The translations under genes were made by a program, and so were the position numbers. The notes under the pieces were generated by a model. The model searched no databases. It was not told the origin of the DNA and saw only the letters and a program-made list of their open reading frames with translations. This document shows positions 2,064 through 28,053 of a stretch of 64,000 nucleotides of DNA, in pieces; the stretch's first letter is position 1; every line of letters begins with the position of its first letter. This DNA is from Comamonadaceae bacterium (GTDB lineage: Bacteria; Pseudomonadota; Gammaproteobacteria; Burkholderiales; Burkholderiaceae_C): NCBI GenBank assembly GCA_009996515.1, contig JAACZV010000009.1, forward strand, positions 1 to 64,000, read 5' to 3'.

Positions 2064-2078
2064 TGTAGCTGCACTACA
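2064..2078. promoter_or_regulatory. HexR-type operator upstream of glk-hexR
   Basis: TGTAGCTGCACTACA is a 15-bp palindrome matching the half-sites TGTAGT / ACTACA except for one base. Its centre is 109 bp upstream of the glk-hexR start. The architecture (6-bp half-sites, 3-bp centre) is that of the HexR motif TGTAAT-www-ATTACA described for Shewanella and relatives, so autoregulation by the fused HexR is inferred. Confidence 0.65.
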
Positions 2079-2183
2079 AGGATTCGGTGCCGATTTTTGC
2101 CTGCATCTCTGGCGACGGTCGAGTTCTGAAGACGCTCGCTCCTGGGGTGTTCCAATCAGGGTGGGCCTGCATTGCCCAGGCGG

Positions 2184-2198
2184 TGTAGTTTTGCTACC
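2184..2198. promoter_or_regulatory. HexR-type operator upstream of glk
   Basis: TGTAGTTTTGCTACC matches the shared palindrome with one outer mismatch. It is centred 113 bp before the glk ATG, mirror-symmetric with the site for the divergent glk-hexR. The same left half and centre (TGTAGTTTTGCTAC) recur before the pullulanase gene. Confidence 0.65.
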
Positions 2199-2303
2199 GT
2201 CCGGCGCGACCCACATCACGCCGTTTCTCGTGCCCGCTCAGACCTCTCCCATGCCCGCCTCTCTCCGTGCCACCGCCGCCTGCCCCGTGCCGGGAGTGTG
2301 CGC

Positions 2304-3290
2304 ATGAGTGCCGCCTTCCCCTGGCTGGTGGCCGATGTGGGCGGCACCAACGCCCGCTTCGGCATGGTGGCCGGCCCCGGTGCGCCGGTGGAGGAGGTGC
2401 GCGTGCTGCCGGTGGCGGCGCATGCCGGGCCGGCCGCGGCCGTGCGCGCCTATCTGGCCGGCCAGGGCCCGGGCCGGCCGCGGCCGCGCAGTGCGGCTTT
2501 CGCGCTGGCCACGGCGCTGGACGGCGACCGGGTCGAGCTGACCAACGGCGCCTGGAGCTTCTCGCGGGCCGGCGTGCAGGCGGAGCTGGACCTCCAGACG
2601 CTGCTGTGCCTGAACGATTTCGAGGCGCAGGCGCTGTCGCTGCCGCGCCTGCACGGGCGGCAACTGCGCGCCTGGGGGGCGTCGCCGCCGGCCGTGGGCG
2701 ACGTGGCGGTGGGCACGGTCATGGCCGTCATCGGCCCCGGCACCGGCCTGGGTGTGGGCGGCGTGGTGCGCGCGCCGGGCCGCTGGCTGGCGCTGCCGGG
2801 AGAGGGCGGCCATGCGACGCTGGCGCCGGCCGACGACTTCGAAAGTGCCGTGCTGGCCCAGGCGCGCCGCGAGTTCCCCCATGTATCGGCGGAGCGCTTC
2901 TTGTCGGGCATCGGCCTGCCGGTGCTGTGCCGCGCGGTGGCGGCGGTGCTGGGCGGCGGCGAGGACGTCGCGGCACTGTCCACGGAGCAGATCGTGGCCC
3001 GCGGCCTGGCCGGCGAGTCGCCCGCCTGCGGCCGCACGCTGGAGGTCTTCTGCGCGATGCTGGGCGGCTTTGCCGGCAATGTCGCGCTGACGCTAGGCTC
3101 GCGCGGCGGCGTCTTCATCGGCGGCGGCATCGTGCCGCGCCTGGGCGAGCGCTTCTTCCAGTCGGCGTTCCGCCAGCGCTTCGAGGCCAAGGGCCGGTTC
3201 CAGCCCCTGCTGGCCGGCATCCCCACGGCCCTCATCACCGACACGCTGGCCGCGCTGTCCGGCGCCGCGCTGGCGCTGGAGCAGGCCTAG
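2304..3290 (+). CDS. glk: Glucokinase (second, stand-alone copy)
   Basis: A 328-residue ROK-independent bacterial glucokinase that phosphorylates glucose with ATP in the cytoplasm. It carries the same signatures as the kinase half of the neighbouring fusion: DVGGT at 11-15, catalytic D105 in LNDF, GTGLG at 146-150, GEGGH at 166-170 and a C-terminal GGGIVPRLGERF segment. It is similar to the fusion's kinase domain but clearly diverged, so an old duplication or separate acquisition. The ATG at 2304 puts the VADVGGT strand at the usual distance from the N-terminus; upstream in-frame codons are C-rich leader. It would feed glucose released by the GH13 enzymes and MalQ into the hexose-phosphate pool. 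A HexR-type site precedes it. Confidence 0.92.
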   Translation: MSAAFPWLVADVGGTNARFGMVAGPGAPVEEVRVLPVAAHAGPAAAVRAYLAGQGPGRPRPRSAAFALATALDGDRVELTNGAWSFSRAGVQAELDLQTLLCLNDFEAQALSLPRLHGRQLRAWGASPPAVGDVAVGTVMAVIGPGTGLGVGGVVRAPGRWLALPGEGGHATLAPADDFESAVLAQARREFPHVSAERFLSGIGLPVLCRAVAAVLGGGEDVAALSTEQIVARGLAGESPACGRTLEVFCAMLGGFAGNVALTLGSRGGVFIGGGIVPRLGERFFQSAFRQRFEAKGRFQPLLAGIPTALITDTLAALSGAALALEQA

Positions 3291-3410
3291 GCCTGACCGG
3301 CGGGCGTCCCTCGCCCGCCTTTCCTCCTCTTCGACGTCGCTCGCGGCGCCGTCTGGCCGCGCCGGGCGCAGCCATGCCTGCGGTCGTCTGGGAATCAGCG
3401 CATTCGATGA

Positions 3411-3425
3411 TGTAGTTGAGCTACA
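3411..3425. promoter_or_regulatory. HexR-type operator upstream of the TonB-dependent receptor
   Basis: TGTAGTTGAGCTACA is a near-perfect 15-bp palindrome of the family found before glk-hexR, glk, glgP and the pullulanase gene. It is centred 262 bp before the receptor start, further away than at the other genes, so the receptor mRNA probably has a long leader. Confidence 0.62.
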
Positions 3426-3548: not shown

Positions 3549-3679
3549 AGGGATGCTTCCAAATCTAGTTTTGATACAAACATCCCCGAGACATCGGGTT
3601 CTCGACAGCGGATGAATGCGCCTCGGGGCGCCAGGCTGCGGGGCCGGGCCGTTTTCCAGACGAACCACAGGAGACAGAC

Positions 3680-6472
3680 ATGACCATGAACAAGGACAGG
3701 CGCATGAATGCTCGCGACTCCTTCCGCATCAGCTCGGTGGCCGTTGGCTGCACATTGCTGATCGCGGCATGCGGGGCGATGGCCCAGCAGCCCGCGCAGC
3801 AGCTGGAGACGGTGACCGTCACGGGCATCCGCAAGGGCATCGAGGCCTCGATCTCGGTGAAGAAGAACGCCGACAACATCGTTGAATCGGTGTCGGCCGA
3901 AGACATCGGCAAGCTGCCCGACGTCAGCATCGCCGAGTCCATCGCACGCCTGCCGGGCCTGTCGGCCCAGCGCGTCGCTGGGCGCGCCCAGGTGATCAGC
4001 GTGCGCGGCCTGTCGCCGGACTTCGCCACCTCGCTGCTGAACGGCCGCGAACTGGTCAGCACCGGTGACAACCGTTCCGTCGAATTCGACCAGTACCCCT
4101 CTGAACTCCTTGCCAGCGTCAACGTCTACAAGACGCCCGACGGCGGCCTGATCGGCCAGGGGCTGTCCGGCACCATCGACATGCAGACCGTACGCCCGCT
4201 GAATTTCGGCAGCCGCGTCATGGCCCTCAACGTGCGAGGCCAGAAGAACTCCCTCGGCGCTGCTGCCAATGCCAAGAGCACGGGCAATCGCGTGAGCGCG
4301 AGCTACATCGACCAGTTCGCCGACCGTACCGTTGGCCTGGTCCTGGGCTATGCCCACCAGGAAACCCCGGTTCAGGAGGAGCAGGTCGGCCTGTACGAGC
4401 CCTGGCAGGCCCTGGGCGCCGGCTGGCGGCCGGGTGTCGCGGCCGGCGCCTTCTATTCCGACGGCATCAAGGCACTGCGTCGCACAGGCGTGAACAAGCG
4501 CGACGCTTTCCTGGCCACCGCCGAGTTCCGCCCTCACGAGTCATTCACCAGCGTCGTCGACTACTACCACACCCGCGCCACGCAGGAAGACACCGCCAAT
4601 CAGTTCGAGGTGAACCTGAGCGGCTACAACGGCGGCTACTCGCCCGGCCTGAACATCACCAACGCCGTCATCAACAGCAACAGCACCTTCGTCGGCGGCA
4701 CCGCCAGCGGTCTGTACCCGCTGGTGCGTGGCATGTACAACGACCGCAAGGACACCATCGATGCCTTCGGCTGGAACAACAAGCTGCGCCTGAAGGGTGG
4801 CGGCACGCTCACCGCGGATGTGAGCTACTCCAAGGCCGACCGCAAGGAGCTCAACCTCGAGAACAACACGCAGCTGGCCCCGAACGGAGCCACCGCCCCC
4901 CTGGATACGCTGAAGTTCAACTTCGCCACGGGTGGCTTCCCCACCATGGTCCCGACGCTGAGCTATTCGGATCCGACCAAGCTGTTCCTGCGCGGCACGA
5001 TCTATGGCTCTGGCTATGGCAAGGTGCCCAGCGTCAAGGATGAGCTGAAGTCGCTCAAGCTGGCCGGCAACTTCCCGCTGCCGGATTCGATGCGTGGCCT
5101 GTTCCAGGACGTGGACATCGGCATCAACTACGCCGATCGTTCCAAGAAGAAGCACCAGCCCGAGGGCAGCATCGACGTGGGCGCCCAGGGCGACACCGTC
5201 ATCGCGAGCGAACTGCAGTACTCGCCGGTCGACCTCAGCTTCGCCGGGCTGGGCAGCATCCCGGCCTGGAACGTGCCTGCCGCCGTCGCTCGCTACATGA
5301 AGTTCAATCCCAGCGAGACCAGCGCCGACTATCTGATCCCCAAGGCCTGGAACGTGTACGAGAAGACCACGACCGGCTTCGTCAAGGGCAATATCGAAAG
5401 CGAGTGGGCCGGTGTGCCGGTGCGCGGCAATGTCGGCTTGCAAGTCATCCGTGTTGACCAGTCCTCGACCTCCAACTACTGGGACAGCAACGCCCCGGCC
5501 GGCAGCAACATCAAGGCCAACAGCGACGGCAAGGTTCGTACCGACGTTCTGCCGAGCATGAACCTCGCGTTCTCGCTGGCCGATGACCAGACCCTGCGTG
5601 TGGCGCTGGCCCGTCAGATGGCCCGCCCGCGTGTCGACCAACTGCGTTCCGGCGTCGAGTTCGGCGTCGACAACGCGACCGGCAAGCCGGGCGCCAGCGG
5701 GGGCAATCCCAAGGCCGACCCGTGGATCGCCAATGCCTTCGACATCTCCTATGAGAAGTACTTCGGCACCAAGGCCTATCTGGCTGCGGCCGGCTTCTTC
5801 AAGGACCTGAAGAGCTACATCTACACGCAGAAGCAGGATGGCTACGACTTCAGCAGCTTCACGAAAAGCTACGTGCCGCCCAGCACCTGCACGACGCCGG
5901 CCGGCTCCAACCAGCCTTGCCCGCCCGCGCTGCCGACCGGCACGTTCACGGCGCCGTTCAACGGCAAGGGGGGCAAGCTGTCCGGTGTCGAGCTGTCGGC
6001 CTCGCTGCCGCTCGGCCTCGTCGCCGACTCGCTCAAGGGCTTCGGCATCCAGGCCAGCGCCAGCTTCACGCACAGCAGCATCAAGATCCAGGATCCCGAG
6101 AGCGCCAGCAGCGTGGGCAGCGGCGACATCGCGCTGCCTGGCCTGTCCAAGCAGGTCTACAACCTGACCGCCTACTACGAGATCAACGGATTCGAGGCTC
6201 GCGTCAGCCAGCGCCGCCGCTCGGACTTCATTGGCGAGATCGGCAACTTCAACGGCAGCCGCACGCTGCGCTACGTTGTCGGCGAGAACATCACCGACAT
6301 GCAGCTCGGCTACAGCTTCGGCGAAGGCAGCCTCAAGGGGCTGGGCCTGCTGTTCCAAGTGAACAACCTGACGAACGCGGCTTACCGCACCTACGCCGGC
6401 ACCAAGGATCGCCCGCTCGAATACATCAAGTGGGGCCGCACCTACCTGCTCGGCGCCAGCTACAAGTTCTGA
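3680..6472 (+). CDS. TonB-dependent outer-membrane receptor, probably for maltodextrins
   Basis: A 930-residue TonB-dependent receptor of the large proteobacterial carbohydrate subfamily (Xanthomonas/Caulobacter type). It has a signal peptide (residues about 1-36, hydrophobic VAVGCTLLIAACGAMA then QQ), a TonB box-like ETVTVTG near 42-48, a plug domain at about 65-180 (SVRGLSPDF, NGRELVSTG), and a long beta-barrel ending in the aromatic C-terminal residue of YLLGASYKF, as required for BAM insertion. No SusD partner is encoded nearby. Its position between glucokinase genes and the mal operon, with a HexR-type site upstream, argues for import of starch oligosaccharides; the substrate is inferred, not seen. 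A strong intrinsic terminator follows. Confidence 0.88.
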   Translation: MTMNKDRRMNARDSFRISSVAVGCTLLIAACGAMAQQPAQQLETVTVTGIRKGIEASISVKKNADNIVESVSAEDIGKLPDVSIAESIARLPGLSAQRVAGRAQVISVRGLSPDFATSLLNGRELVSTGDNRSVEFDQYPSELLASVNVYKTPDGGLIGQGLSGTIDMQTVRPLNFGSRVMALNVRGQKNSLGAAANAKSTGNRVSASYIDQFADRTVGLVLGYAHQETPVQEEQVGLYEPWQALGAGWRPGVAAGAFYSDGIKALRRTGVNKRDAFLATAEFRPHESFTSVVDYYHTRATQEDTANQFEVNLSGYNGGYSPGLNITNAVINSNSTFVGGTASGLYPLVRGMYNDRKDTIDAFGWNNKLRLKGGGTLTADVSYSKADRKELNLENNTQLAPNGATAPLDTLKFNFATGGFPTMVPTLSYSDPTKLFLRGTIYGSGYGKVPSVKDELKSLKLAGNFPLPDSMRGLFQDVDIGINYADRSKKKHQPEGSIDVGAQGDTVIASELQYSPVDLSFAGLGSIPAWNVPAAVARYMKFNPSETSADYLIPKAWNVYEKTTTGFVKGNIESEWAGVPVRGNVGLQVIRVDQSSTSNYWDSNAPAGSNIKANSDGKVRTDVLPSMNLAFSLADDQTLRVALARQMARPRVDQLRSGVEFGVDNATGKPGASGGNPKADPWIANAFDISYEKYFGTKAYLAAAGFFKDLKSYIYTQKQDGYDFSSFTKSYVPPSTCTTPAGSNQPCPPALPTGTFTAPFNGKGGKLSGVELSASLPLGLVADSLKGFGIQASASFTHSSIKIQDPESASSVGSGDIALPGLSKQVYNLTAYYEINGFEARVSQRRRSDFIGEIGNFNGSRTLRYVVGENITDMQLGYSFGEGSLKGLGLLFQVNNLTNAAYRTYAGTKDRPLEYIKWGRTYLLGASYKF

Positions 6473-6530: not shown

Positions 6531-6532
6531 AT

Positions 6533-6954: not shown

Positions 6955-9342
6955 TCAGGGCGTCACGAGCACGCGGCCGAACAGCGCGGGCACGGTGAGT
7001 TCGAGTTCGCCGTCGCTGACGCGGACCGACTCGCCGCTCAGGCCGTCGCGCAGGCGGCCGGCGGCGAACGGCAGGCGGATCTTGACGGCGCGTGGTTCCA
7101 GGCTGTTGTTGGTTGCAGTGATCGCCCAGGTCTTGCCGTCCTGGCGGGCGAGCAGCACGACATGCTCGTCCAGGTACAGCGGTGCGCTCAGCGAGCCATG
7201 GCGCAGCACCGGCAGCGCCTGGCGCAGCGCCGTCAGCCGCTTGAAGTCGGCCAGCAGCGCCTCGTCGGGCTCACCCCCCTCGTCGGCCCAGGGGTAGGGG
7301 GCGCGGTTGTAGGGGTCTTCGCCGCCACCCAGCCCCACCTCGTCGCCGTAGTAGATGGTGGGCGAGCCGGGGTAGGTCATCTGGAAGAACACCGCCAGGC
7401 GCAGGCGCTGCTTGGCGAGCCCCAAGGCCTGGGCGTCGCCGTCGTCGCGGTAGCCGAAGTGGTACAGGGCGCGCGGCTGGTCGTGCGTGGACAGCAGGTT
7501 CATCAGCGCGAACAGCGCCTGCGGCGGGTAGGCCTCCCGCAGCAGCTCGAGGTTGGCGTAGGCCCTGGAAGCGGGCTGGCCGGCGGCGTAGTCCAGCACC
7601 GCGTTGCGGAAGATGTAGTTCATCGTGCTGTCGAACATGTCGCCCAGCAGGAACTTGCTCGCGTCGAACCAGGTCTCGGCCACCGTCAGCGCATCGGGCT
7701 TCCTGGCCTTCACGGCCTGGCGCCATTCGCGCCAGAAGTCGTCGGGCACCCAGGGCGCGACGTCCATGCGCCAGCCGGCCGCGCCGCGGTCCAGCCAGTA
7801 GTTCGTCACCGAGTCGGGCGCGCGGTAGGCATAGGCGCGGAAGGACGGGTTGTCCTTGTCGATCTCGGGCAGGTCGGCCACGCCGACCCAGCCCTGGTAC
7901 TGCTTGTCCGGATCGGTCTCGCCGGCCTTGAACCTGAACCAGCCGTAGTAGGGCGAGGCGGGGTTGGGCTTGCCGCCATCGAAGGCGCCCCCCGGCGGGA
8001 AGTTCAGGTAGCGGTTGAAGTAGGGCGAGTCCGCGCCGACATGGTTCAGCGAGGTGTCGGGGATGACGCGCAGGCCCCGCTTGGCGGCCTCGGCGCACAG
8101 GCGCACGAAGTCCTCGTTGCTGCCGAAAGCCGGGTCGATCTGCTTGTAGTCGGCCGCGTCGTACTTGTGGTTGCTGGGCGCGCGGAACACCGGCGTCAGG
8201 TAGATTGCGTTGGCGCCGACGCTCTTGATGTAGTCGAGCTTCTCGATGAGGCCGGCCAGGTCGCCGCCGAAGAAGTCGTTGTTGTGCACGGGGTCGGAGC
8301 CGTCGCCCTTCTCCCCGGGGCCGGCCGGCTTGAACGGCTTCTCCATCCAGCTCGCGTGGCGCTCCACGTCGCCCTGCTGGTAGCGGTCCTGCGGCCGGCC
8401 GCCGCCGGGGCGCGGGTCGTTGGTCTTGTCGCCGTTGCGGAAGCGCTCGGGGAAGACGTAGTAGTAGACGACATCCCGGGCCCAGCTCGGCACCTGGAAA
8501 TCGGGTGCGTGGACGGTCTGGCGGTAGCGGCGCACGCGGGCCAGGTTGTCGGGCAGGCGCTCGACGCTGGACGGGCCCATGCTGCCCTTCTCGCGGGTCC
8601 AGTAGACGCCGTCCTTGTTGTTCTGCAGCGCGTAGCGGCCGCTGGCCGTCTCCAACTCGAACCAGTAGCCGAACACGCCCACCTCGTCGAAGCGGTAGCG
8701 GGCCGAGAAGCCCCGGCCGGCCTGCTTCATCGGGATGCGGGCGACGGGCTCGTAGGCGATCTGCTCCTGGTTGCCCGTCAGGTGGCGGCGCTCGACGACC
8801 AGCGTCACGCGCCGCAGGCCGGGCGCACCGCTGGCGACGCGGAAGCTGAACTCGCTCCCCTTGGGCTGGGCGCCGAAGGGCGTCTTGAAGGCGCTGCTGC
8901 GCGAGTTGAAGCGCGCCGTCAGCACGGCGGGGTCGGTGATGGCCTGCGGCGGCGTGGGCGTGAAGCTGCGCGGCCCGATCTGCAGTTGCGCCGCGCCGGC
9001 CGCATCCAAGCTCAGGCGCAGCGTGTGCTCGCCACTGAAGTCGCGCTTCAGATTGCCGTTGGCGCCGCGGCTGGGCAGGTTGCTGGCATCCGCACCGAAG
9101 CTGAGCTCGGGCGTCCAGGCCTCGTCGGCCAGCTTGAACTCCTGCGGCCCCCGCGCGGTGAGGTTCAGGTAGTAGGCGTCGCAGCGGTACTCGAAGGCGT
9201 ACTCGTCCTGGGCCACCCACTGGTTGAGCTGGCCCCTCAGGTAGATCGTGGCATGTCCCAGTGGGGCGGGTTTGCAGTCGGCGGCGTGGGTCACGGCGGT
9301 GAACGAAAGCAGCGCCGCAAGCAGCGCACAGATCTTCAGCAT
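6955..9342 (-). CDS. Exported GH13 alpha-glucan hydrolase (neopullulanase/maltodextrin glucosidase type)
   Basis: A 795-residue GH13 enzyme with a signal peptide (MLKICALLAALLSFTAVTHA, cleavage before ADC). An N-terminal beta-rich region of about 270 residues precedes the catalytic barrel. Barrel motifs are DTSLNH, the nucleophile region GWRMDVAPW (D at about 525), the acid/base region VAETWFD (E at about 555) and STHDQPR (HD at about 618); a small beta domain closes the protein. It should cleave starch oligosaccharides or cyclodextrins in the periplasm. It is the last gene of the malK-malE-malF-malG operon, 3 bp after malG, linking hydrolysis to uptake of the products. The exact specificity cannot be read from the sequence. 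Confidence 0.88.
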   Translation of the reverse strand: MLKICALLAALLSFTAVTHAADCKPAPLGHATIYLRGQLNQWVAQDEYAFEYRCDAYYLNLTARGPQEFKLADEAWTPELSFGADASNLPSRGANGNLKRDFSGEHTLRLSLDAAGAAQLQIGPRSFTPTPPQAITDPAVLTARFNSRSSAFKTPFGAQPKGSEFSFRVASGAPGLRRVTLVVERRHLTGNQEQIAYEPVARIPMKQAGRGFSARYRFDEVGVFGYWFELETASGRYALQNNKDGVYWTREKGSMGPSSVERLPDNLARVRRYRQTVHAPDFQVPSWARDVVYYYVFPERFRNGDKTNDPRPGGGRPQDRYQQGDVERHASWMEKPFKPAGPGEKGDGSDPVHNNDFFGGDLAGLIEKLDYIKSVGANAIYLTPVFRAPSNHKYDAADYKQIDPAFGSNEDFVRLCAEAAKRGLRVIPDTSLNHVGADSPYFNRYLNFPPGGAFDGGKPNPASPYYGWFRFKAGETDPDKQYQGWVGVADLPEIDKDNPSFRAYAYRAPDSVTNYWLDRGAAGWRMDVAPWVPDDFWREWRQAVKARKPDALTVAETWFDASKFLLGDMFDSTMNYIFRNAVLDYAAGQPASRAYANLELLREAYPPQALFALMNLLSTHDQPRALYHFGYRDDGDAQALGLAKQRLRLAVFFQMTYPGSPTIYYGDEVGLGGGEDPYNRAPYPWADEGGEPDEALLADFKRLTALRQALPVLRHGSLSAPLYLDEHVVLLARQDGKTWAITATNNSLEPRAVKIRLPFAAGRLRDGLSGESVRVSDGELELTVPALFGRVLVTP

Positions 9343-9345: not shown

Positions 9346-10236
9346 TCAGCCCTTGACACCGCCCGCCGTCAGGCCGGAGACGATCCAGCGCTGGGCGAGC
9401 AGGAAGACCGCCGTGATCGGCAGGCCGGACAGCACGGCCGCGGCGGCGAAGTCGCCCCACAGGAAGCGCTGGTCGTGCAGGAAATACTTGGAACCGACGG
9501 CCAGCGTGAGGTTGCCCTCCTCGCGCAGCAGGATGGACGCCACCGGGTACTCGATGATGGTGCCGATGAAGGCCAGCACGAACACCACCATCAGGATGGG
9601 CACGGCCATGGGCAGCAGCACTCGGGAGAAGGCCTGCCAGTGCGTCGCGCCGTCGACCTTGGCGTTCTCCTCGATCTCCACGGGGATGGTCTCGAAGTAG
9701 CCCTTGATGGTCCACACATGCGTGGCAATGCCGCCCAGGTAGGCCAGCACCAGGCCGGCATGGGTCTCGATGCCCAGGGCCGGCACGTAGCTGCCTATGG
9801 TCTCGAAGATCGCGAAGATCGCGACCAGCGCCAGCACCGGCGGGAACATCTGCAGCAGCAGCATGCCGTTGAGCACCGGCTTGCTGAAGCGGAACTTCAG
9901 CCGCGCGAAGGCGTAGGCCGCGGTGGTGGAAATGGCGACGATGAGCAGGGCCGACACGGTGGCGACCTTGATGGAGTTCCACAGCCAGGTCAGCACGGGG
10001 AAGGGTGGCTGCACCAGGCTGCCGTCGGCGGCCTGGTACGGGATGCCGAGAGCGAGCTTCCAGTGCTCCAGGCTGATCTCGTCCGGGATCAGGCTGCCGG
10101 TGGCGAAGTTGCCGGGCCGCAGCGAGATGGACACCACCGCCAGCAGCGGGAACAGCGTGATCGCGATGAAGATCCACAGCACCGCATGCGCGGCGAAGGT
10201 GCGCCAGCGGGCTTGTTTGCCGAGGACGATGGCCAT
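9346..10236 (-). CDS. malG: Maltose/maltodextrin ABC transporter permease MalG
   Basis: A 296-residue inner-membrane permease with six predicted membrane segments, and an EAA-type cytoplasmic loop around [24 protein letters not shown] that contacts MalK. The N-terminus [20 protein letters not shown] and the C-terminus ending GLTAGGVKG are typical MalG features; the MalG C-terminal tail inserts into MalK. The ATG at 10236 was preferred over longer frames because GGAG lies 7 nt upstream in the mRNA and because upstream codons fall in a repeat. It follows malF after a 301-bp gap filled by REP-like repeats, and precedes the GH13 gene by 3 bp. Confidence 0.93.
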
Positions 10237-10537
10237 TGGGTCAGAACTCCAAATCCGGATGCATTGGGCGGGAAGGATCAGGCCGGGCGGGCGGTCTGCT
10301 CCGTGTCCCTTCTTGGCCGGCCCTGAAAGGCCGGCCAATTCATTCCTTTACCTGCGCAGCCCCCCCGCCCGGCCTGATCCGGCGACAGCGGTTGGGTTCG
10401 CTGCAAAAAACAGCTCGTGCCGGTTGGCGAGTGCGGGTGCCGAGGGACGAAGGTAAAGGGGGAGCCCGCGCAGCGGGCGGAGGACACGAAGTCCTTCGGC
10501 CCCCGTGCTCGCCAACCCATCCGAATCGCTCGGGCCA
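10237..10537. repeat. malF-malG spacer built of two REP-like hairpins in opposite orientation
   Basis: A 301-bp gap inside the mal operon. An outer 17-bp perfect inverted repeat (10275-10291 with 10364-10380) encloses the hairpin GGCCGGCC (10315-10322) / GGCCGGCC (10329-10336). A second element at 10448-10492 reads CGAAGGTAAAGG, hairpin CCCGCGCAGCGGG, then GGACACGAAGT. Around that second element, GTTGGCGAG (10423-10431) pairs with CTCGCCAAC (10508-10516). The first hairpin's flanks are the reverse complement of the second's (CCGTGTCCC, CCTTTACCT), so this is a pair of one repeat family. Related sequence occurs at 19540-19697. Confidence 0.7.

Positions 10538-13349: not shown

Positions 13350-13353
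<4 letters not shown>
12112..13353 (-). CDS. malE: Maltose/maltodextrin-binding protein MalE with repeat-derived signal peptide
   Basis: A 413-residue periplasmic solute-binding protein of the maltose family. The mature part, starting DTPRLLVWINGDKAYNGL, has typical MalE segments (PDIFCWPHDRVGEWAKAGLL, YPIAIETTGLIYNKAL, GPWAWDN). The ATG at 13353 overlaps the malK stop as ATGA; an in-frame ATG at 13335 is the alternative. The signal peptide is unusual: residues 8-35, including the basic region and most of the hydrophobic core (FSVALCLCGWL), are encoded by a hairpin repeat of the ACCACAGAGGCACAGAG type. The predicted cleavage is after VATA, just outside the repeat. It delivers maltodextrins to MalFGK. 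Confidence 0.92.
13250..13332. repeat. Hairpin repeat (ACCACAGAGGCACAGAG type) inside the malE signal-peptide codons
   Basis: The arm at 13250-13279 and the arm at 13303-13332 are inverted copies matching at 28 of 30 positions, with a 23-nt centre. Dispersed repeats of this sequence type (CTCTGTGCCTCTGTG) are, to my knowledge, found in many unrelated bacterial genomes, usually between genes. Here the whole element is in frame inside malE and encodes residues 8-35 of the precursor. Confidence 0.85.
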
Positions 13354-14471
<1,118 letters not shown>

Positions 14472-14761: not shown

Positions 14762-17292
<2,531 letters not shown>

Positions 17293-17293
<1 letters not shown>

Positions 17294-19470: not shown

Positions 19471-19520
19471 TGAACGCGACCGATGCAGTGTCAGGGTTGG
19501 CGCGGGGAGCGCAAGGCGGC

Positions 19521-19697
19521 GGGGTGCCCCCAAAGCTCCGTGTCCCCCGGCCGCTATGCGGCCTCCTCCTTGACCTTCGCTTTGGGGGCACCCCACCACC
19601 TCGCTTGGTGGCGATAACCGATCGTCGCCCGCCGCGGGGTGTGGGGGGAGGCGGCCACGAAGGTCAAGGAGGAGGCCGCATAGCGGCCGGGGGACAC
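19521..19697. repeat. glgB-glgX spacer: nested inverted repeats with 40-bp perfect arms
   Basis: The arm at 19540-19579 (starting GTGTCCCCCGGCCGC) and the arm at 19658-19697 (ending GCGGCCGGGGGACAC) are perfect 40-bp inverted copies. A second perfect 16-bp pair, GGGGTGCCCCCAAAGC (19521-19536) and its complement at 19579-19594, is nested around the left arm. Each arm contains a small hairpin, GCCGCATAGCGGC, flanked by CGAAGGTCAAGG and GGGGACACGAAGT, matching the element at 10448-10492. The RNA would form a very stable structure between glgB and glgX. Confidence 0.8.
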
Positions 19698-19761
19698 GAA
19701 GTAGACGGCTCCGCCCGCAGCCCGCGGCTCATCCCAAACTTCGCGTTGACGTTCGATTGAC

Positions 19762-21846
19762 ATGGCACACCTGCCCGAACTTCAACCCGGCTGGCACGAG
19801 CCGCTAGGCGCGCTTGCTCGTGATGGCGGCGTCAACTTCGCCTTCGCAAGCGAACACGCCACCCGCATCGAGCTGTGCGTCTTCGACGCCGAAGGCCAGC
19901 GCGAGCTGCGCCGCTACGCGCTGGACGGTCCTCAGGACGGCGTCTTCCACGGCTTCCTGCCTGGCGTGGGCCCGGGCCTGGTCTACGGCCTGCGCGCCCA
20001 TGGCCCGTATGCGCCGGAGCAGGGCCACCGCTTCAACCCGCACAAGCTGCTGCTGGACCCCTGGGCGCGCGAGATCGTCGGCCGCTTCGGCTGGCGGGCC
20101 GAGCACCATGGCTACGAGCTGGGCCACCCGGACGGCCCGCGGTCGCTGGACGCGCGCGACAACGCGACGCAGGCGCTGAAGGCCCGCGTGGCCGCCGCGC
20201 CGGTCATGCATGCAGGCGCACGCCGCCCGCGCCGCGCGCCTGCCGAGGTCGTGCTCTACGAGGTCCACGTCAAGGGCTTCTCCAGGCTGCTGCCCGGTGT
20301 GCCGGAAGACCTGCGCGGCACCTATGCCGGCCTGGCCCATCCCGCCGCCATCGCGCATTTCAAGCGCCTGGGCGTGACGACGCTGTCGCTGCTGCCGGTG
20401 CAGTACGCCATCGCCGAGCCTCACCTGGCCGAGCGCGGCCTGCCCAACTACTGGGGCTACAACACGCTGGGCTTCTTCTGCCCCGACCCGCGCTGGGCCC
20501 AGGCCGTGCACCGCGACGACCCCACGGCCGTGGCGGCCGAGTTCCGCGCCATGGTGGACGAGCTGCACGCCGCCGGCCTGGAGGTGGTGCTGGACGTGGT
20601 CTACAACCACACGCCCGAGGGCAACGAGTTCGGGCCCACGCTGAGCTGGCGCGGCCTGGACAACAAGACCTGGTACCGGCTAATGGCCGACGACCCCAGC
20701 CGGCATGAGAACCTGACCGGCTGCGGCAACACGGTGAACTGCGCCCATCCGCGGGTGACGCAGTTCGTGCTGGACTCGCTGCGCTACTGGGTCGCCGAGA
20801 TGGGCGTGGACGGCTTCCGCTTCGACCTGGCGCCCGTGCTGGGCCGCACGGGCCGGGGCTTCGACCCCGGTGCCGGCTTCTTCACCGCGCTGCGGCAGGA
20901 CCCGCTGTTGGCCGGCGCGCACCTGATCGCCGAGCCCTGGGACGCGGCCCATGACGGCTACCAGCTGGGCCGCTTTCCCGGCCGCTTCCTGGAGTGGAAC
21001 GACAGGTTCCGCGACGCCGCGCGCGGCTACTGGCTGGGCGTGGGCCCGGGCGTGGGCCGCGGCGAGCTGGCGCGGCGCTTCATGGCCTCCAGCGACGTCT
21101 TTCACCACGGCGGGCGGCTGCCGAGCGCGTCGGTCAACTTCATCGCCGTGCACGACGGCTTCACGCTGGCCGACCTGACCAGCTATTCCACCAAGCACAA
21201 CCAGGCCAACGGCGAGGACAACCGCGATGGCCGCGACGGCGAGCTGTGCGCCAACTTCGGCGCCGAGGGGCCGACGGACGACGCCGCGATCAACGCCGCC
21301 CGCGAGCGCGTGCGCCGCGCGCTGCTGGCCACGCTGCTGCTGGCCCAGGGCACGCCCATGCTGTGCGCCGGCGACGAGATCGGCAACAGCCAGGGCGGCA
21401 ACAACAACGCCTACTGTCAGGACAACCCGACCACCTGGCTGGACTGGGAGCGGGCCGACGGGGCGCTGGCCGAGCTGGTGGCCCAGGCCCTGGCCCTGCG
21501 CGCGCAGGAGCCGCTGCTGCGCCACCCCCGCTGGTTCGCCAACGGCCCCGGCGAGGCACGCATCGTCTGGCATGCGCCCAGCGGCCACGAGATGACGCCC
21601 GGCGACTGGCACGACGCCGGCCAGCGCGCCTTCGGCGCCCAGCTGTTCGAGGCCGGTGCCGGCGTGCCCCGGCTGATGCTGGTCTTCAACCCCGAGCCCG
21701 AGGTCTTGCCCTTCCTGCTCTGCAACGGCCCCTGGCGGCTGGTGCTGGACAGCAGCGCGGCGCTGGGCGAAACCCTCGTGCGGGCCGGCCAGCCGTTCGG
21801 CGTGCCGGCCCGCTCCCTGCTCGTCCTTCGGCATACACCGACATGA
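19762..21846 (+). CDS. glgX: Glycogen debranching enzyme (isoamylase type)
   Basis: A 694-residue GH13 enzyme that hydrolyses alpha-1,6 branches of limit dextrins. It has an N-terminal CBM48-like part (LGALARDGGVNFAFASEHA) and barrel motifs DVVYNHT, GFRFDLAPVLG (nucleophile at about 354), IAEPWD (Glu at about 391) and VHDGFTLAD (HD at about 462), all typical of GlgX/TreX. It follows glgB after a 291-bp repeat-filled spacer and overlaps malQ by ATGA. It would supply linear dextrins to GlgP and MalQ. There is no strong ribosome binding site before the ATG at 19762. Confidence 0.94.
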   Translation: MAHLPELQPGWHEPLGALARDGGVNFAFASEHATRIELCVFDAEGQRELRRYALDGPQDGVFHGFLPGVGPGLVYGLRAHGPYAPEQGHRFNPHKLLLDPWAREIVGRFGWRAEHHGYELGHPDGPRSLDARDNATQALKARVAAAPVMHAGARRPRRAPAEVVLYEVHVKGFSRLLPGVPEDLRGTYAGLAHPAAIAHFKRLGVTTLSLLPVQYAIAEPHLAERGLPNYWGYNTLGFFCPDPRWAQAVHRDDPTAVAAEFRAMVDELHAAGLEVVLDVVYNHTPEGNEFGPTLSWRGLDNKTWYRLMADDPSRHENLTGCGNTVNCAHPRVTQFVLDSLRYWVAEMGVDGFRFDLAPVLGRTGRGFDPGAGFFTALRQDPLLAGAHLIAEPWDAAHDGYQLGRFPGRFLEWNDRFRDAARGYWLGVGPGVGRGELARRFMASSDVFHHGGRLPSASVNFIAVHDGFTLADLTSYSTKHNQANGEDNRDGRDGELCANFGAEGPTDDAAINAARERVRRALLATLLLAQGTPMLCAGDEIGNSQGGNNNAYCQDNPTTWLDWERADGALAELVAQALALRAQEPLLRHPRWFANGPGEARIVWHAPSGHEMTPGDWHDAGQRAFGAQLFEAGAGVPRLMLVFNPEPEVLPFLLCNGPWRLVLDSSAALGETLVRAGQPFGVPARSLLVLRHTPT

Positions 21847-23354
21847 ACCTGAACCAACGCATCTCCGGCGTGCTGCTGCACATCACCTCGCTGCCCGGCC
21901 CGCACGGCATGGGCGACTTCGGCCCCGATGCCTTGCGCTTCGTCGACTGGCTGCAGGCCGCCGGCCAGGGCCTCTGGCAGCTGCTGCCCACCACGCCCAT
22001 AGGCCCGGGCGACAGCCCCTACCAGGGGGTGTCGGCGTTCGCGGGCAGCCCCTGGATGGTGGCGCTGGAGCCGTTGGTCGCCAGGGGATGGCTGAAGCCG
22101 CCCGAGGCCCCCGGCTTCGATGACGCGCAGGTGGACTATGGCCGCGTCACGCCCTGGCGCGAACAGCAGCTGCGCGCTGCGGCCCGGGGATTCCTCGCCG
22201 ATGCGACCACGGCGGACCGCCAGGCCTTCGCCGCCTGGTGCGAGGCCCAGCGCAGCTGGCTGGACGACTACGCCCTCTTCATGGCCATACGCTCGCCGCT
22301 GAACGGCCAGCCCTGGTGGACCTGGGAAGACGGGCTCAAGAGGCGCGAGCCCAAGGCGCTGGCCCAGGCGCGCAAGCAGTACGCCGACGAGATCGCCTTC
22401 TGGCAGTTCGTGCAGTGGCAGTTCGACGTCCAGATCGCCGCGCTGAAGGCCTACGCCAACGCCCGCGGTGTGCACCTGATGGGCGACCTGCCCATCTTCG
22501 TCGCCCACGACAGCGCCGACTGCTGGTCGCGGCCCGATCTGTACCACCTGGACGACGACTTCCAGACCACCGTCGTCGCCGGCGTGCCGCCCGACGACCT
22601 GGGCCCGCTGGGCCAGCGCTGGGGCAACCCGCTGTACCGCTGGGACAAGATGGCCCAGGAGGACTACGCCTGGTGGACGGCCCGCGTGCAGCGCGCGCTG
22701 ACGCAGGCCGACGTGTTCCGCATCGACCACTTCCGCGGCTTCGCCGGCTACTACGAGATCCCCGGCGACAGCCCCGACGCCAAGGGCGGCGAGTGGAAGG
22801 CCGGCCCGGGCATGGCCTTGTTCGACGCCATCAGGAAGGCGCTGGGCCCGCTGCCCATCGTCGCCGAGGACCTGGGCTTCATCACCGACGACGTGCATGC
22901 GCTGCGCGACGGCTGCGGCTTCCCCGGCATGAAGATCCTGCAGTTCGCGTTCGGCGCCGAGGCCGACCACGAGTTCCTGCCGCATCAGTGGCCGCGGGCC
23001 GCGGTGGCCTATACCGGCACCCACGACAACGACACCGTGCGCGGCTGGTGGAACCAGGCCAGGCCGCGCGAGCGCGCCTTTGCGGGCTCCTACCTCGCCT
23101 GCGGCGAGCACGACGTGCACTGGGCCATGATCCGTGCCTGCGCCAACTCGGTGGCCAACCTGGCCGTCTACCCGCTGCAGGACGTGCTGGGCCTGGGCTC
23201 CGAGCACCGCATGAACATCCCCGGCGTGCTGGGTGGCAACTGGGGCTGGCGCTTCCGCTGGGACTGGCTGGGCGCCGAGCCCACGCGCGTGCTGGGCCTG
23301 ATCACGGCGGCGGCGGGGCGGGGGCCGTTCGGGCTGCTGAAGCTGCCGGATTGA
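21843..23354 (+). CDS. malQ: 4-alpha-glucanotransferase (amylomaltase)
   Basis: A 503-residue GH77 enzyme. It transfers glucan segments between maltodextrins and releases glucose, making acceptors long enough for GlgP. Motifs are SLPGPHGMGDFGPDA, SPYQGVSAFAGSPW, VFRIDHFRGF (nucleophile at about 293), PIVAEDLG (Glu at about 341) and GTHDNDT (Asp at about 390). It overlaps the glgX stop by ATGA and is the last gene of the block. Confidence 0.95.
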   Translation: MNLNQRISGVLLHITSLPGPHGMGDFGPDALRFVDWLQAAGQGLWQLLPTTPIGPGDSPYQGVSAFAGSPWMVALEPLVARGWLKPPEAPGFDDAQVDYGRVTPWREQQLRAAARGFLADATTADRQAFAAWCEAQRSWLDDYALFMAIRSPLNGQPWWTWEDGLKRREPKALAQARKQYADEIAFWQFVQWQFDVQIAALKAYANARGVHLMGDLPIFVAHDSADCWSRPDLYHLDDDFQTTVVAGVPPDDLGPLGQRWGNPLYRWDKMAQEDYAWWTARVQRALTQADVFRIDHFRGFAGYYEIPGDSPDAKGGEWKAGPGMALFDAIRKALGPLPIVAEDLGFITDDVHALRDGCGFPGMKILQFAFGAEADHEFLPHQWPRAAVAYTGTHDNDTVRGWWNQARPRERAFAGSYLACGEHDVHWAMIRACANSVANLAVYPLQDVLGLGSEHRMNIPGVLGGNWGWRFRWDWLGAEPTRVLGLITAAAGRGPFGLLKLPD

Positions 23355-24307: not shown

Positions 24308-24413
24308 CTTCACCACGCATGGTTGCAAGAAGAAAGCCTTCCATGGCCGCGGCGGCGATGACGGTTCTTTCGGGAGAGGCCGTTATTTTATCGCCTGTGG
24401 CCGGCAGCCGCTT

Positions 24414-26312
24414 TCAGCCCCCGATTTCCAGGATCAACGGGCTGCGCGCCGGCACCGTGAGGAGGGCTCCCAGCGTCTGCGTCCCGCCGCCCAGCACGTC
24501 GCGGGCGTGCTGTCCCGGCGCCACCCGCTCGGCAAAGCGGGCCAGCGGCAGCTCCACCGGCTGGGCCGTCTTGTTCAAGGCCACCATGACCGTGCGCCGC
24601 CCGTCGTAGCGGAAGAACACATAGCAGCCGCCCAGCGGCGCGTACTGCATCAGCGCGCCGTCGTGGATCAGCGCCTCGCCCTTGCGCCAGTTGAAGAGCC
24701 GCCGCACCCAGGCCTGCATGTCGCGTTGCTGCGGCGTCAGGCCCGCGCCCGTGAAGGCGTTGACCGGGTCGCCGGGCCAGCCGCCCGGCATGTCGCTGCG
24801 CACGCGGCCGTCGTCGCGCTGCACGGGGCTTTCCATCAGGATCTCGCTGCCGTAGAACAGCTGCGGGATGCGCCGCGTCGTCGCGAGATAGGCCAGCGCC
24901 AGCTTGGTCAGGCCCATGTCGCGCCCGAGCAGCGAGAACAGCCGCGGCGTGTCGTGGTTGCCGTCGAACAGCACCAGCCTGGCCGGGTCGGCGTAGACGA
25001 AGTCATGCGCCAGGCTTTCGTACAGCCGCGTGAGCCCGGTGAAGGCGCCGTCATCCTCGGTCAGCGCGGCCAGCAGACCCGTGTTCAGCGGGAAGTCCAT
25101 CATGCTGGGCGTGGACGAGATGTAGCCGTCGTGGTTGCGCTTGCCGCGCTGCCAGTAGGCGACGACGGCCGGATGCGGGCTCCATTCCTCGCCGACGATG
25201 TTGAGGTTGGGGTACTCCTGCATGACGCGCGCCGACCATTGGCTCAGGAAGTCGCGATCCGAGTACGAGTAGGTGTCGGTGCGCAGGCCCGACAGGCCGT
25301 AGCGCTCTATCCACCACAGCGTCATCTGCGTCAGATAGGTGGCCAGCTCGGGCCGGCGCTGGTTCAGGTCGGGCATGCCGGGCACGAACCAGCCGTCGGT
25401 GAAGCGGCGGCGGTCGCTGGGGGCGGCGTAGGGATCTTGCAGCGTCATGCGCGCGTGGTGGGTCTCGACGAACCTGAGGCCCGCGGGCGTGACCTGAGTA
25501 CCCATGCCGCCCGCCGGGTCCGGCGCCTCGTCCCGCGGCCACTGGTTGACCCAGTCCGGCGCGGGCAGGTCGGCCATCCACCAGTGGCCGCTGCCGATGT
25601 GGTTCAGCACCACGTCCTGGATGACGCCCAGGCCCTGGGCCCGGGCCTCGGCCACGAAGGCGCCGAAGTCGTCGTTGGTACCGAAGCGCGGGTCGATGCG
25701 GTAGAAGTCCGTCGCCGCATAGCCGTGGTAGCTGTACCGCTCGCTGTCGTTCGCGATCAGCGGCGTGGGCCAGACCTGCGTGAAGCCCAGGCCGGCGATG
25801 TAGTCCAGGTGGCGGCGCAGGCCGGCCAGGTCGCCGCCGTGGCGGCCGTCGGGGTCGTCGCGGGCCATGCCTTCCTTCATGCCGGCCCGGCCGAGGTCGG
25901 CGCCCTTGGCGAAACGGTCCGGCACGACCAGGTAGATCGCGTCTGCGGGGCCGAAGCCCTGACGCTGGGCCGAGCCCGGGGCGCGGGCCAGCAGCGGATA
26001 GCGCAGCGTCTGGCGGCCCAAGGTCAGCGTCAGCTCTCCCGGGCGGGCGCCGGGCGCGACGGCGAGGTCCACGAACAGGTAGTTGGGGCTGTCGGCGCGG
26101 TGGCTGGCCTTCAGCGTGACGCCGGGGTAGGGGGCCAGCAGCGGCTTCTCGTCGGCGATGCCGGCGCCGTGGATCATCAGCTGCAGCGCGCCGTCGCGCA
26201 TGCCCACCCACCAGTTGGGCGGCTCGACACGGAGGGAGGCGGGGCCGGTCTCGGCGGCCGTCGTGGGCAGGGTCATCAGCAGGGCGGTGGCCAGGGTGAT
26301 CAAGGTCTTCAT
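24414..26312 (-). CDS. Exported cyclomaltodextrinase/neopullulanase-like GH13 enzyme
   Basis: A 632-residue GH13 enzyme with a signal peptide (MKTLITLATALLMTLPTTAA). An N-terminal cyclomaltodextrinase-N-like domain (RVEPPNWWVGM ... LMIHGAG) of about 110 residues precedes the barrel. Catalytic motifs are GLRTDTYSY (nucleophile at about 345), NIVGEEW (Glu at about 375) and FDGNHDTPR (Asp at about 453); a small C-terminal domain follows. The family includes SusA-like periplasmic neopullulanases acting on starch oligomers and cyclodextrins. Its start overlaps the stop of the upstream amylase gene by ATGA (26309-26312), so the two form an operon. Confidence 0.9.
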   Translation of the reverse strand: MKTLITLATALLMTLPTTAAETGPASLRVEPPNWWVGMRDGALQLMIHGAGIADEKPLLAPYPGVTLKASHRADSPNYLFVDLAVAPGARPGELTLTLGRQTLRYPLLARAPGSAQRQGFGPADAIYLVVPDRFAKGADLGRAGMKEGMARDDPDGRHGGDLAGLRRHLDYIAGLGFTQVWPTPLIANDSERYSYHGYAATDFYRIDPRFGTNDDFGAFVAEARAQGLGVIQDVVLNHIGSGHWWMADLPAPDWVNQWPRDEAPDPAGGMGTQVTPAGLRFVETHHARMTLQDPYAAPSDRRRFTDGWFVPGMPDLNQRRPELATYLTQMTLWWIERYGLSGLRTDTYSYSDRDFLSQWSARVMQEYPNLNIVGEEWSPHPAVVAYWQRGKRNHDGYISSTPSMMDFPLNTGLLAALTEDDGAFTGLTRLYESLAHDFVYADPARLVLFDGNHDTPRLFSLLGRDMGLTKLALAYLATTRRIPQLFYGSEILMESPVQRDDGRVRSDMPGGWPGDPVNAFTGAGLTPQQRDMQAWVRRLFNWRKGEALIHDGALMQYAPLGGCYVFFRYDGRRTVMVALNKTAQPVELPLARFAERVAPGQHARDVLGGGTQTLGALLTVPARSPLILEIGG

Positions 26313-27937
26313 CGCGCGTCCAGCCGGTAGACGCGCAGGGACAGCGGCGGCAGCGTCGTGCGCCCCTGCGGCACGGCGCCGCCGCGCGGATGGAGCTGGC
26401 GCGCGCGCGCCGGCAGCGCCAGCGTGGCGGGGGTGTCGCCGTAGTTGATGGCCACCAGCACGCGCTCGCCGTCCAGCACGCGCTGGAAGCTCCAGAGCTG
26501 GCCGTCGACGCGATCGGCCTCGTAGCGGCCCAGCGTTAGCGCCGGCGAGGCGCGGCGCAGCGCGATCAGCTCGCGGTAGAAGTTGAACAGCGAGCCCGGG
26601 TCGCGCTGCTGGCGGTCGGCGTTGTGGCGGCCGCGGTTCGGCGACAGCGGGCGGAAGGGCCGTGCGTTCGTCGTGAAGCCGCCCCGGCCCAGGTTGCCGG
26701 CGGTCCAGCTCATGGGTGCGCGCAGCGGCTCGTCGGCCAGGCCGTCTATGCCGGCCTGGCCGATCTCCTCGCCGTAGTAGACGAAGGGCGTTCCCGGCAG
26801 CAGCAGATAGCTGGCCGCCGCCAGTCGGTAGCGGTCCTGGTCGCCGCGCAGCTGATCCCAGACGCGCTGGCCGGTGAAGATGTCGTGGTTGTGCAGGAAA
26901 GTCGCCATCGTGGGCGACATGCTCCGGTAGTAGTCGGCCACGCGCCGCACCGCCTCGGCATCGCCCTGGGCCGCCTTCATCAGCTCGTAGTTCTGGTTGA
27001 ACGCGAACGCGCCGCCGCACAGCTCGGGCCGGCCGTAGTCGACGGGCTGGGCCGTGGCCTCGCAGACGACGTAGCGGCCGGGGTAGCTCTTGATGAGGTC
27101 CTGGAAGTGCTTGGTCAGCGCGCGGCTCTCGGGCTGGTCGTTCCAGTCCTTGGCGCTGTTCTCGATCAGGTGGGGCACGGCGTCCAGCCGGTAGCCGTCC
27201 AGGCCGCGGTTCAGCCAGAAGCGCAGTGAGTCCTCGTGGTAGCGGACGACCTCGGGGTTGCGCAGGTTGAAGTCGGGCATGTGGGGCCCGAAGGTGCCGA
27301 AGTAGATGTCGGGCGAGCCGGGCGTGACGGGGGGCAGGTCCTTCCACTCGCCGGTCCAGGTCCACGGCTGCCGCGCCGCGTCATACCAGGGGACCTTGCC
27401 CCAGATGTCCCAGCCCGGGCCGGGCTCGGGGTTCCAGACGAACCAGTGGCGCCAGGGGCTGCCGCGGTCGGCCACCGCCTGCTGGAAGGGCGGGAACTGC
27501 CAGGACGCGTGGTTGATGACGTAGTCCATGACGATGCCGATGCCGCGCTTGTGCGCCTCGCGTATCAGTTCATCGAAATCGGCCAGCGTGCCGTACTGCG
27601 GCTCGATGCCGCGGTAGTCGGTCGTCGCGTAGCCATGGTCGTGGTCGGAGCTGGCGGTGATGGGCATCAGCCACAGGCCGCTGATGCCCAGCTTCTGCAG
27701 ATAGGCGAGGCGCCGGGTCAGCCCGCGCAGGTCGCCGATGCCGTCGCCGTCGCTGTCCTGGTAGGCGCGCACGAAGACTTCCATGAAGACGCCCTGCTGC
27801 CAGTGCGCCGGCAGCGTGCTCGGGCGGGGCTGGGCGGGCACGGGGCGGGTGTCGATCTGGGCGCTGGCGGCGGTGGCGGCCAGCGCCAGCGAGAGCAGGA
27901 GTCGTCGGGGCATGAGGGTCGGCGCATTGAGGGGCAT
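26309..27937 (-). CDS. Exported alpha-amylase/alpha-glucosidase, GH13
   Basis: A 542-residue GH13 enzyme with a signal peptide; an internal ATG at 27913 would start it at MPRRLLLSLALAATAASAQ. The barrel has HGYATTDYRGIEPQYGT, DYVINH, GLDGYRLDAVPH (nucleophile at about 250), VVCEATAQ (Glu at about 292) and LHNHDIFTG (HD at about 350). The close spacing of an oligo-1,6-glucosidase/trehalose-synthase-like core suggests action on short maltodextrins rather than whole starch. It heads an operon with the neopullulanase-like gene. A HexR-type site is centred 33 bp upstream, where it would block transcription or early elongation. Confidence 0.88.
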   Translation of the reverse strand: MPLNAPTLMPRRLLLSLALAATAASAQIDTRPVPAQPRPSTLPAHWQQGVFMEVFVRAYQDSDGDGIGDLRGLTRRLAYLQKLGISGLWLMPITASSDHDHGYATTDYRGIEPQYGTLADFDELIREAHKRGIGIVMDYVINHASWQFPPFQQAVADRGSPWRHWFVWNPEPGPGWDIWGKVPWYDAARQPWTWTGEWKDLPPVTPGSPDIYFGTFGPHMPDFNLRNPEVVRYHEDSLRFWLNRGLDGYRLDAVPHLIENSAKDWNDQPESRALTKHFQDLIKSYPGRYVVCEATAQPVDYGRPELCGGAFAFNQNYELMKAAQGDAEAVRRVADYYRSMSPTMATFLHNHDIFTGQRVWDQLRGDQDRYRLAAASYLLLPGTPFVYYGEEIGQAGIDGLADEPLRAPMSWTAGNLGRGGFTTNARPFRPLSPNRGRHNADRQQRDPGSLFNFYRELIALRRASPALTLGRYEADRVDGQLWSFQRVLDGERVLVAINYGDTPATLALPARARQLHPRGGAVPQGRTTLPPLSLRVYRLDAR

Positions 27938-27962
27938 GAAAGCCGGCCAGCAAACCCGGCCA

Positions 27963-27977
27963 TGTAATCGAACTACG
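27963..27977. promoter_or_regulatory. HexR-type operator upstream of the exported amylase operon
   Basis: TGTAATCGAACTACG has left half TGTAAT (as in the Shewanella HexR consensus) and right half ACTAC-G. It is centred 33 bp before the amylase ATG at 27937, the same distance as the site before divergent pulA. Confidence 0.58.
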
Positions 27978-28038
27978 CATCGGAGGCGAGGAAAGCATAG
28001 CCAATCGCCTGCGATGAGGTGCTTGGTGATTTCGATGA

Positions 28039-28053
28039 TGTAGTTTTGCTACT
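28039..28053. promoter_or_regulatory. HexR-type operator upstream of pulA
   Basis: TGTAGTTTTGCTACT differs from the consensus palindrome only at two right-half positions. It is centred 33 bp before the pulA ATG and overlaps the -10-like hexamer TACTAT at 28050-28055, consistent with repression. Confidence 0.62.

Follow-up and report, generated by a model that had tools for sequence, protein, structure and literature searches.

Paired RccR-Type Operators and a Glucokinase–HexR Fusion as the Predicted Regulator of an α-Glucan Locus in a Comamonadaceae Bacterium

Introduction

The first 64,000 nucleotides of contig JAACZV010000009.1 (C9) of a Comamonadaceae bacterium (assembly GCA_009996515.1, genome 4.58 Mb), hereafter the window, begin with a compact α-glucan locus (bases 1–30763, by profile matches to Pfam and NCBIfam), in which the genes follow in the order glk-hexR, second glk, TonB receptor, GH13, malGFEK, glgP-glgB-glgX-malQ, cyclomaltodextrinase-type enzyme, amylase, and pulA. 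The question that this locus raises is which protein controls these genes together. The original prediction assigned this role to the HexR half of the glucokinase–HexR fusion (Glk-HexR) encoded at the left end, acting through 15-bp palindromes of the HexR type in place of MalT or a LacI-type MalR.

Our analysis indicates that Glk-HexR probably binds operators throughout the locus, most likely as a repressor and possibly as a tetramer over operator pairs, and that it probably responds to a signal other than 2-keto-3-deoxy-6-phosphogluconate (KDPG) in its known mode. The operator is indeed shared across the starch, maltodextrin and glycogen genes and tied to the fusion, but it is not the classical HexR variant: it is the TGTAGT/ACTACA type of RccR, a HexR paralogue of Pseudomonas. 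The binding of RccR to 15-bp TGTAGT-N3-ACTACA has been demonstrated by chromatin immunoprecipitation sequencing, surface plasmon resonance and footprinting, with a pair of sites 68 bp apart at aceE (PMC5489143).

Results

Operators of the locus and their conservation

All six palindromes listed in the original prediction were found at their positions, but the form ascribed to them, TGTAGT-N3-ACTACA, is exact only at 14664; the sites at 2064 and 3411 carry one mismatch each, and those at 2184, 27963 and 28039 two each. The operator TGTAGCTGCACTACA (positions 2064–2078) is located upstream of glk-hexR and TGTAGTTTTGCTACC (2184–2198) over the likely −10 of glk; TGTAGTTGAGCTACA (3411–3425) is upstream of the TonB receptor gene, TGTAGTGAAACTACA (14664–14678) is between malK and glgP, TGTAATCGAACTACG (27963–27977) is upstream of the amylase gene, and TGTAGTTTTGCTACT (28039–28053) lies over the likely −10 of pulA. 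The list of six was incomplete, with two weaker conserved elements to be added: a second receptor operator, TCTAGTTTTGATACA (3564–3578), near the likely −10 of that gene and 153 bp from the 3411 site, and the operator-like TGTAGACAATATACA (14554–14568), over the likely −10 of malK and 110 bp from the 14664 site. The mirror distances of about 110/113 and 33/33 bp agree with gene starts at 1962, 2304, 27937 and 28079, and, as had been noted by eye, the window contains no site with two or fewer mismatches beyond 30 kb. Two placements need correction: the TonB receptor promoter stands in tandem with glk rather than divergently, and the 14664 site is found between malK and glgP.

At up to 0, 1, 2 and 3 mismatches, the window contains 1, 3, 7 and 19 matches, against means of 0, 0.003, 0.125 and 2.47 in 1000 first-order Markov simulations; none of the runs reached any of the four observed counts, and the maximum at up to two mismatches was 3. 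Six of the seven places with two or fewer mismatches are intergenic, although intergenic sequence makes up only 8.3% of bases 1–30763 according to our gene list; the seventh (20990) is inside glgX. Simulation and conservation together rule out a chance origin of the sites. Motif scores are 13.7–27.4 for seven of the eight starch-locus sites and 7.6 for the malK element; the null distribution of this score was drawn partly from loci fetched for near-matches, which biases it upward, and it is not relied on.

In alignments of the promoter regions from 17 same-genus sequences, the operators are among the best conserved blocks of the columns inspected. The 2064 site is aligned in all 17, with the last base changed in two; TGTAGTTTTGCTAC of the 2184 site, the halves TGTAGT and CTACA of the 3411 site and both perfect half-sites at 14664 are found in all 17, and so is TCTAGTTTTG(A/G)TACA at 3564. 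The malK element, despite its weak score, is exact in 16 of 17. Conservation in relatives, which the original prediction had called for, extends to the spacing of the pairs. It is 152–154 bp for the TonB receptor pair in 17/17 (153 bp in 13) and 76–77 bp for the amylase/pulA pair in all 12 stretches that span both sites; for the malK/glgP pair, 15 of the 16 sequences with an exact malK element have 110 bp and the other has 111 bp. Only the hexR/glk pair is variable (90–126 bp).

By eye, the −10 elements of glk, the receptor gene, malK and pulA fall under the sites at 2184, 3564, 14554 and 28039, a placement that would account for the one-sided deviation of these palindromes. A protein bound there would block polymerase, and repression is in our view the likely mode of action of the fusion. 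Activation of some or all promoters, or action in both directions by site position, appears improbable, though it has precedents: Vibrio HexR activates glgX and represses pgi depending on where it binds (PMC11906056), and KDPG raises the affinity of RccR for 28-bp sites while lowering it for 15-bp sites (PMC5489143). All sites of the locus, however, belong to the 15-bp class, at which the affinity of RccR fell.

The strict motif TGTAGYNNNRCTACA, with no mismatch allowed, gave 57 matches in 20 genomes of the genus, 1–4 per genome. In the fetched stretches, 55 of the 57 are upstream of glk-hexR, the TonB receptor gene or glgP/malK; one of the remaining two precedes a GlgX-like gene (L226), and the other a gene beside an ExbB/TolQ-like gene (L231). 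Sites before a gene adjoining an ExbB/TolQ-like gene occur in three genomes, G019 (L231), G175 (L190) and G244 (L193). As a regular target, tonB-exbBD was rejected: when the 20 top-matching ExbB-like loci in the genus were examined, 19, our own among them, showed no good site in the upstream stretch covered; the gene before exbB gave no family match, and the label "tonB" is a guess. A pair of sites 75 bp apart also precedes a second malE-malF-malG set in a relative (G175, L191, 11052–11141), and two sites 87 bp apart precede a GH13-type gene (G189, L195, 9147 and 9234) on the contig that also carries the fusion gene, far away.

Occurrence of the motif with the fusion gene

Fusion loci were represented by the best 80 of 197 relatives found, all in Burkholderiales (Roseateles, Pelomonas, Paucibacter, Mitsuaria, Undibacterium, Rubrivivax, Ideonella, Aquabacterium and others). 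In 74 of them, the 620 bp preceding the fusion gene contain a site with at most two mismatches, whereas 620-bp stretches taken from inside the same genes contain none (0/80).

The same association was observed in a survey of 150 genomes of the family, in which the fusion was called from a HexR domain sharing 66% identity or more with that of the fusion. Such a domain is present in 23 genomes; the exact site occurs in 19 of these and in 10 of the 127 others (Fisher p = 2.4 × 10−13, uncorrected for relatedness), and the reversed control pattern is found in 133 of the 150 by hand count, with or without the fusion. In G229 (L189) and G243 (L197), starch genes with sites are on a different contig from the fusion gene, and the agreement between motif and fusion therefore goes beyond mere linkage. 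One genome without the main fusion clade, G301, contains a single 15-mer, TGTAGCAGAGCTACA in either orientation, four times on four contigs, possibly as a repeat element.

The fusion protein consists of a glucokinase domain (residues 9–323), an RpiR-type helix-turn-helix domain (336–406), a SIS domain (458–585) and a weakly predicted tail (594–628); PF01418 and PF01380 exceed their cut-offs, giving the order helix-turn-helix, then SIS. The AlphaFold model has a mean predicted local distance difference test score of 72.6, with residues 594–628 below 50 and parts of both domains weak. The best named matches to the fusion protein are mostly from Roseateles and Pelomonas (90–93% identity). The arginines that contact DNA in RccR (R53, R56) are retained in 108 of 108 main-clade rows, some of which come from the same genome.

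The stand-alone HexR and zwf

Two genes of the genome encode an RpiR-type helix-turn-helix above the Pfam cut-off: the fusion gene and a stand-alone hexR directly behind zwf, whose product is 46% identical to the HexR half of the fusion. The proposal that the HexR half controls the locus must therefore be weighed against a second candidate that it had not considered.

Among 15 zwf promoters (our own and 14 relatives), 14 conserve the half-site RTTACA, or TGTAAY on the other strand; on the opposite side, L215 has a complete TGTAAC, and the other sequences have a weaker half. Our own zwf stretch has no good TGTAGT-type match (best score 7.1), and a further stretch (L219) yielded no zwf. The zwf promoter is strongly conserved as a whole (L124, about 2143–2160; L209–L223), and its GTAACTTNGTTACA-like element is a candidate operator of the stand-alone HexR. 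The edd stretch gave no TGTAGT-type site above a score of 12.5; 68 bp before the edd match is AGTAATATGGTTACT, which differs at two positions from the zwf-type pattern. Judged by these promoters, the two paralogues appear to use different half-sites, and central sugar catabolism probably stays with the stand-alone HexR. The RccR-type operator and the different half-site at zwf make the fusion the likeliest regulator of the starch-locus sites, and we assign it this role with considerable, though not full, confidence.

We consider it unlikely that the stand-alone HexR binds the starch-locus sites with KDPG as the signal, the HexR half of the fusion being a passenger. The stand-alone protein is of the same family and operator spacing class and has kept all nine KDPG contacts discussed below, and RccR, which binds the same motif, senses KDPG (PMC5489143). 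Against this, zwf promoters conserve RTTACA rather than TGTAGT, the motif stands at the fusion's own promoter, and HexR-type matches occur in 131 of the 150 family genomes, whereas the motif occurs in 29 and follows the fusion.

The residue after RFCR-xxG in the helix-turn-helix is C in RccR and the main fusion clade, Y in zwf-linked HexR and mostly F in the distant fusion clade. No recognition-helix rule was drawn from this, the distant clade also having TGTAGT sites (L201, L202).

The replacement of MalT or a LacI-type MalR holds insofar as no match in the genome exceeds the MalT cut-off (PF17874; three weak ones are below it) and no LacI-type gene is in the window, though other regulators could take part. 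That one of the six LacI-type proteins encoded elsewhere in the genome, for example, binds the sites is highly improbable: LacI-type proteins commonly run maltose loci, and one of the six genes adjoins a TonB-receptor-like stretch (66% over 62 residues, L086), but none of the six is in the window, the motif follows the fusion across genomes, and the sites have an odd, three-base centre like RccR sites, whereas LacI-type operators are usually even, CG-centred palindromes.

The ligand pocket and the kinase half

In the RccR–KDPG crystal, nine residues contact the ligand: S139, H148, R152, H164, S183, S185, S188, K270 and R277 (PMC10810197). We aligned HexR domains to the RccR chain (8K3B). In the 80 fusions (L002–L081), position 139 holds Tyr in all but one, which has Asp, position 148 is Phe in 71, Tyr in seven and Leu in two, position 164 is Arg in 78 and Lys in two, and position 188 is Leu, Val, Ile or Met in all; Ser139, His148, His164 and Ser188 are thus kept in none. 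R152 and S183 are retained in 80/80 and S185 in 50/80, with Gly at 185 in the window's own protein. K270 and R277 fall in the divergent tail of the fusions, where the alignment is unreliable.

By comparison, all nine contacts are kept in 15 of 15 zwf-linked HexR proteins (our own and 14 relatives) and eight of nine in the stand-alone HexR of L219, which has no zwf beside it. The distant fusion clade (eight rows, six genomes) keeps S139, H148, R152, S183 and S185 but not H164 and S188, and in the L183 fusion (51% identity), R152 and S183 are the only ones left among the first seven contacts. Together, these more distant glucokinase–HexR fusions, at 51–58% identity (L202, L208, L182–L188), make up a second set, most of which retain the phosphate-binding serines but lack His164 and Ser188.

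Since the substituted residues of the main clade are conserved in their turn, the pocket seems rebuilt rather than decayed. KDPG should exist in the cell, since the genome has an edd gene above the family cut-off (eda was outside the search). KDPG, which the original prediction had proposed to try as the effector, is weakened as the signal by the loss of most contacts in all 80 fusions, and a signal other than KDPG in its known mode is probable, judging by the pocket residues.

The kinase half looks intact when aligned. Its full length aligns with solved glucokinases, with the NDF motif, glycine loop and EGGH motif in register. Among 81 fusions collected, the 43 that were aligned show no variation at N106, D107, E164, G165, G166 and H167, residue 107 presumably being the catalytic Asp by comparison with E. 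coli glucokinase. With a second full glk beside the fusion gene, the cell need not depend on the fused kinase for glucokinase activity. The two glucokinase genes, one fused (76–1962) and one free (2304–3290), stand back to back, an arrangement kept in the genus relatives that span the region.

A more tentative idea is that the fused glucokinase is the sensor, so that a HexR-type regulator would read glucose phosphorylation directly from an enzyme in its own chain. If so, the first step of glucose use would switch the genes that free glucose from starch, and the conserved Tyr in place of the phosphate-binding Ser, together with Phe/Tyr and Arg/Lys where the two His stood, would lock or replace the old ligand.

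Other genes of the locus

The fusion gene occupies positions 76–1962 on the minus strand (PF02685, PF01418, PF01380). It is followed by the second glucokinase gene, glk (2304–3290, plus strand, start chosen by us; TIGR00749 at 256.6 bits, above cut-off, in frame 2172–3290), and the TonB-dependent receptor gene (3680–6472, plus; TIGR01782, 629.5 bits). On the minus strand are a GH13 α-glucan enzyme, probably exported judging by an N-terminal leader seen by eye (6955–9342; PF00128), and malG, malF, malE and malK for a maltose/maltodextrin ATP-binding cassette transporter (9346–14471). By NCBIfam, MalG, MalF and MalE exceed their cut-offs, and MalK is the best match for its gene but below its own cut-off. 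Profile matches identify glgP, glgB, glgX and malQ at 14762–23354 (plus). A cyclomaltodextrinase-type GH13 enzyme (24411–26231, minus; PF09087, PF00128 and PF10438 in frame 24414–27365) and an α-amylase, probably exported (leader by eye; 26309–27937, minus; PF00128), precede the pullulanase gene pulA (28079–30763, plus; PF11852 and PF17967 in frame 28019–30763). The minus-strand frame 23402–24328 matches both a GNAT acetyltransferase and an Rnk/GreA-GreB domain and may be a fusion or two genes.

Discussion

From the sites, their conservation, the link to the fusion gene, the second HexR, the half-site at zwf and the altered pocket, all read from sequence, we infer binding, the direction of control (repression), looping and the nature of the signal. 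According to the proposed model, Glk-HexR would bind TGTAGY-N3-RCTACA in front of its own gene as well as at glk, the TonB receptor gene, malK/glgP, amylase and pulA, and would most likely repress these promoters. Within a pair, the likely −10 is overlapped by one operator and the second is 76–154 bp away, so a tetramer, the form of RccR in the crystal, could hold both. During starch use, a signal would release the fusion, and the genes for import, degradation and phosphorylation would be induced together. Since the SIS pocket lacks most KDPG contacts and the replacements are conserved, this signal is probably not KDPG in its known mode; it may be a new ligand of the remodelled pocket, such as a sugar phosphate, or it may come from the state of the kinase half (glucose, ATP, glucose 6-phosphate).

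Several observations weigh against this model. The motif is not enriched by count: the reversed control pattern gave 86 matches in the 20 genus genomes, compared with 57 for the motif, and in our own genome the strict patterns gave 3 each and the laxer ones 86 for the control and 31 for the motif. Count alone is therefore unusable as a signal, since the control matches as often or more often. The frequency check suggested by the original prediction thus gives no excess in the genome, but the motif is gathered at one conserved locus, and its distinguishing trait is this placement together with its conservation there; only motif matches were mapped. Six of the 80 fusion loci (L017, L030, L031, L053, L067, L073) have no near site within 620 bp upstream, and four of the 23 fusion genomes of the family have no exact site. 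Of these four, G309 and G254 have near-sites (L234, L236), the G195 contig breaks off within the gene (L235), and G212 has no site above a score of 12.5 in the fetched stretch (L237). Conversely, a motif match is present in ten genomes that lack the main fusion clade, although two of these encode a fusion of the distant kind (about 55% identity) and have TGTAGT sites by amylase or mal genes (L201, L202).

Other points concern the regulator and its mode of action. The fusion scores below the NCBI cut-offs for both the bifunctional protein (NF010701, 832.5 bits against 920) and HexR (NF008451, 237.2 against 296). Of the 15 zwf promoters, a single one has a fully palindromic element, so the division between the paralogues is based on one half-site, and the stand-alone HexR could bind some of the starch-locus sites as well. 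The −10 elements were placed by eye, the upstream operators of the pairs may act positively, by analogy with Vibrio HexR at glgX, and both binding and control are predicted from sequence.

With this locus it can be tested how two HexR paralogues share a cell, seemingly divided in labour by one half-site base (TGTAAY or TGTAGY) and seemingly also by signal, the ligand pocket being kept in one and rebuilt in the other. A single protein sequence is enough to predict starch regulation in a broad range of Burkholderiales, and the locus provides a natural enzyme–regulator fusion for asking whether a metabolic kinase can sense its own pathway. The fusion as an NCBIfam family, the RccR operator class, HexR control of sugar catabolism and HexR action on Vibrio glgX are already known. 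Our search, which did not extend to RegPrecise and most subscription papers, yielded no account of an entire starch regulon under the fusion or HexR, of the fusion's role, or of the altered pocket; a predicted HexR regulon for this group may already be listed in RegPrecise.

Among known systems, RccR (P. fluorescens PFLU6073, P. aeruginosa PA5438; 8K3B) has the same RpiR-type helix-turn-helix and SIS domains and the same 15-bp operator. It differs in being a stand-alone protein that controls aceEF, the glyoxylate shunt and gluconeogenesis, and in sensing KDPG through nine contacts that are mostly replaced in the fusion. HexR, zwf-linked or from Vibrio, is of the same family, exerts broad control over central metabolism (PMC5343134) and in Vibrio acts on the glycogen gene glgX, activating it when bound upstream of the promoter and repressing it when bound downstream (PMC11906056). 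It differs in its half-sites, TGTAAY at zwf and TGTAATTAAATTACA in Vibrio (PMC11906056), and in the KDPG contacts, which the zwf-linked proteins keep. The bifunctional glucokinase/regulator PRK14101 (NF010701) has the same domain order and aligns over residues 5–592 of the fusion, but the fusion remains below the cut-off of that family and is located in a starch locus. MalR (LacI type) and MalT would control the same kind of genes, but they belong to protein families different from that of the fusion.

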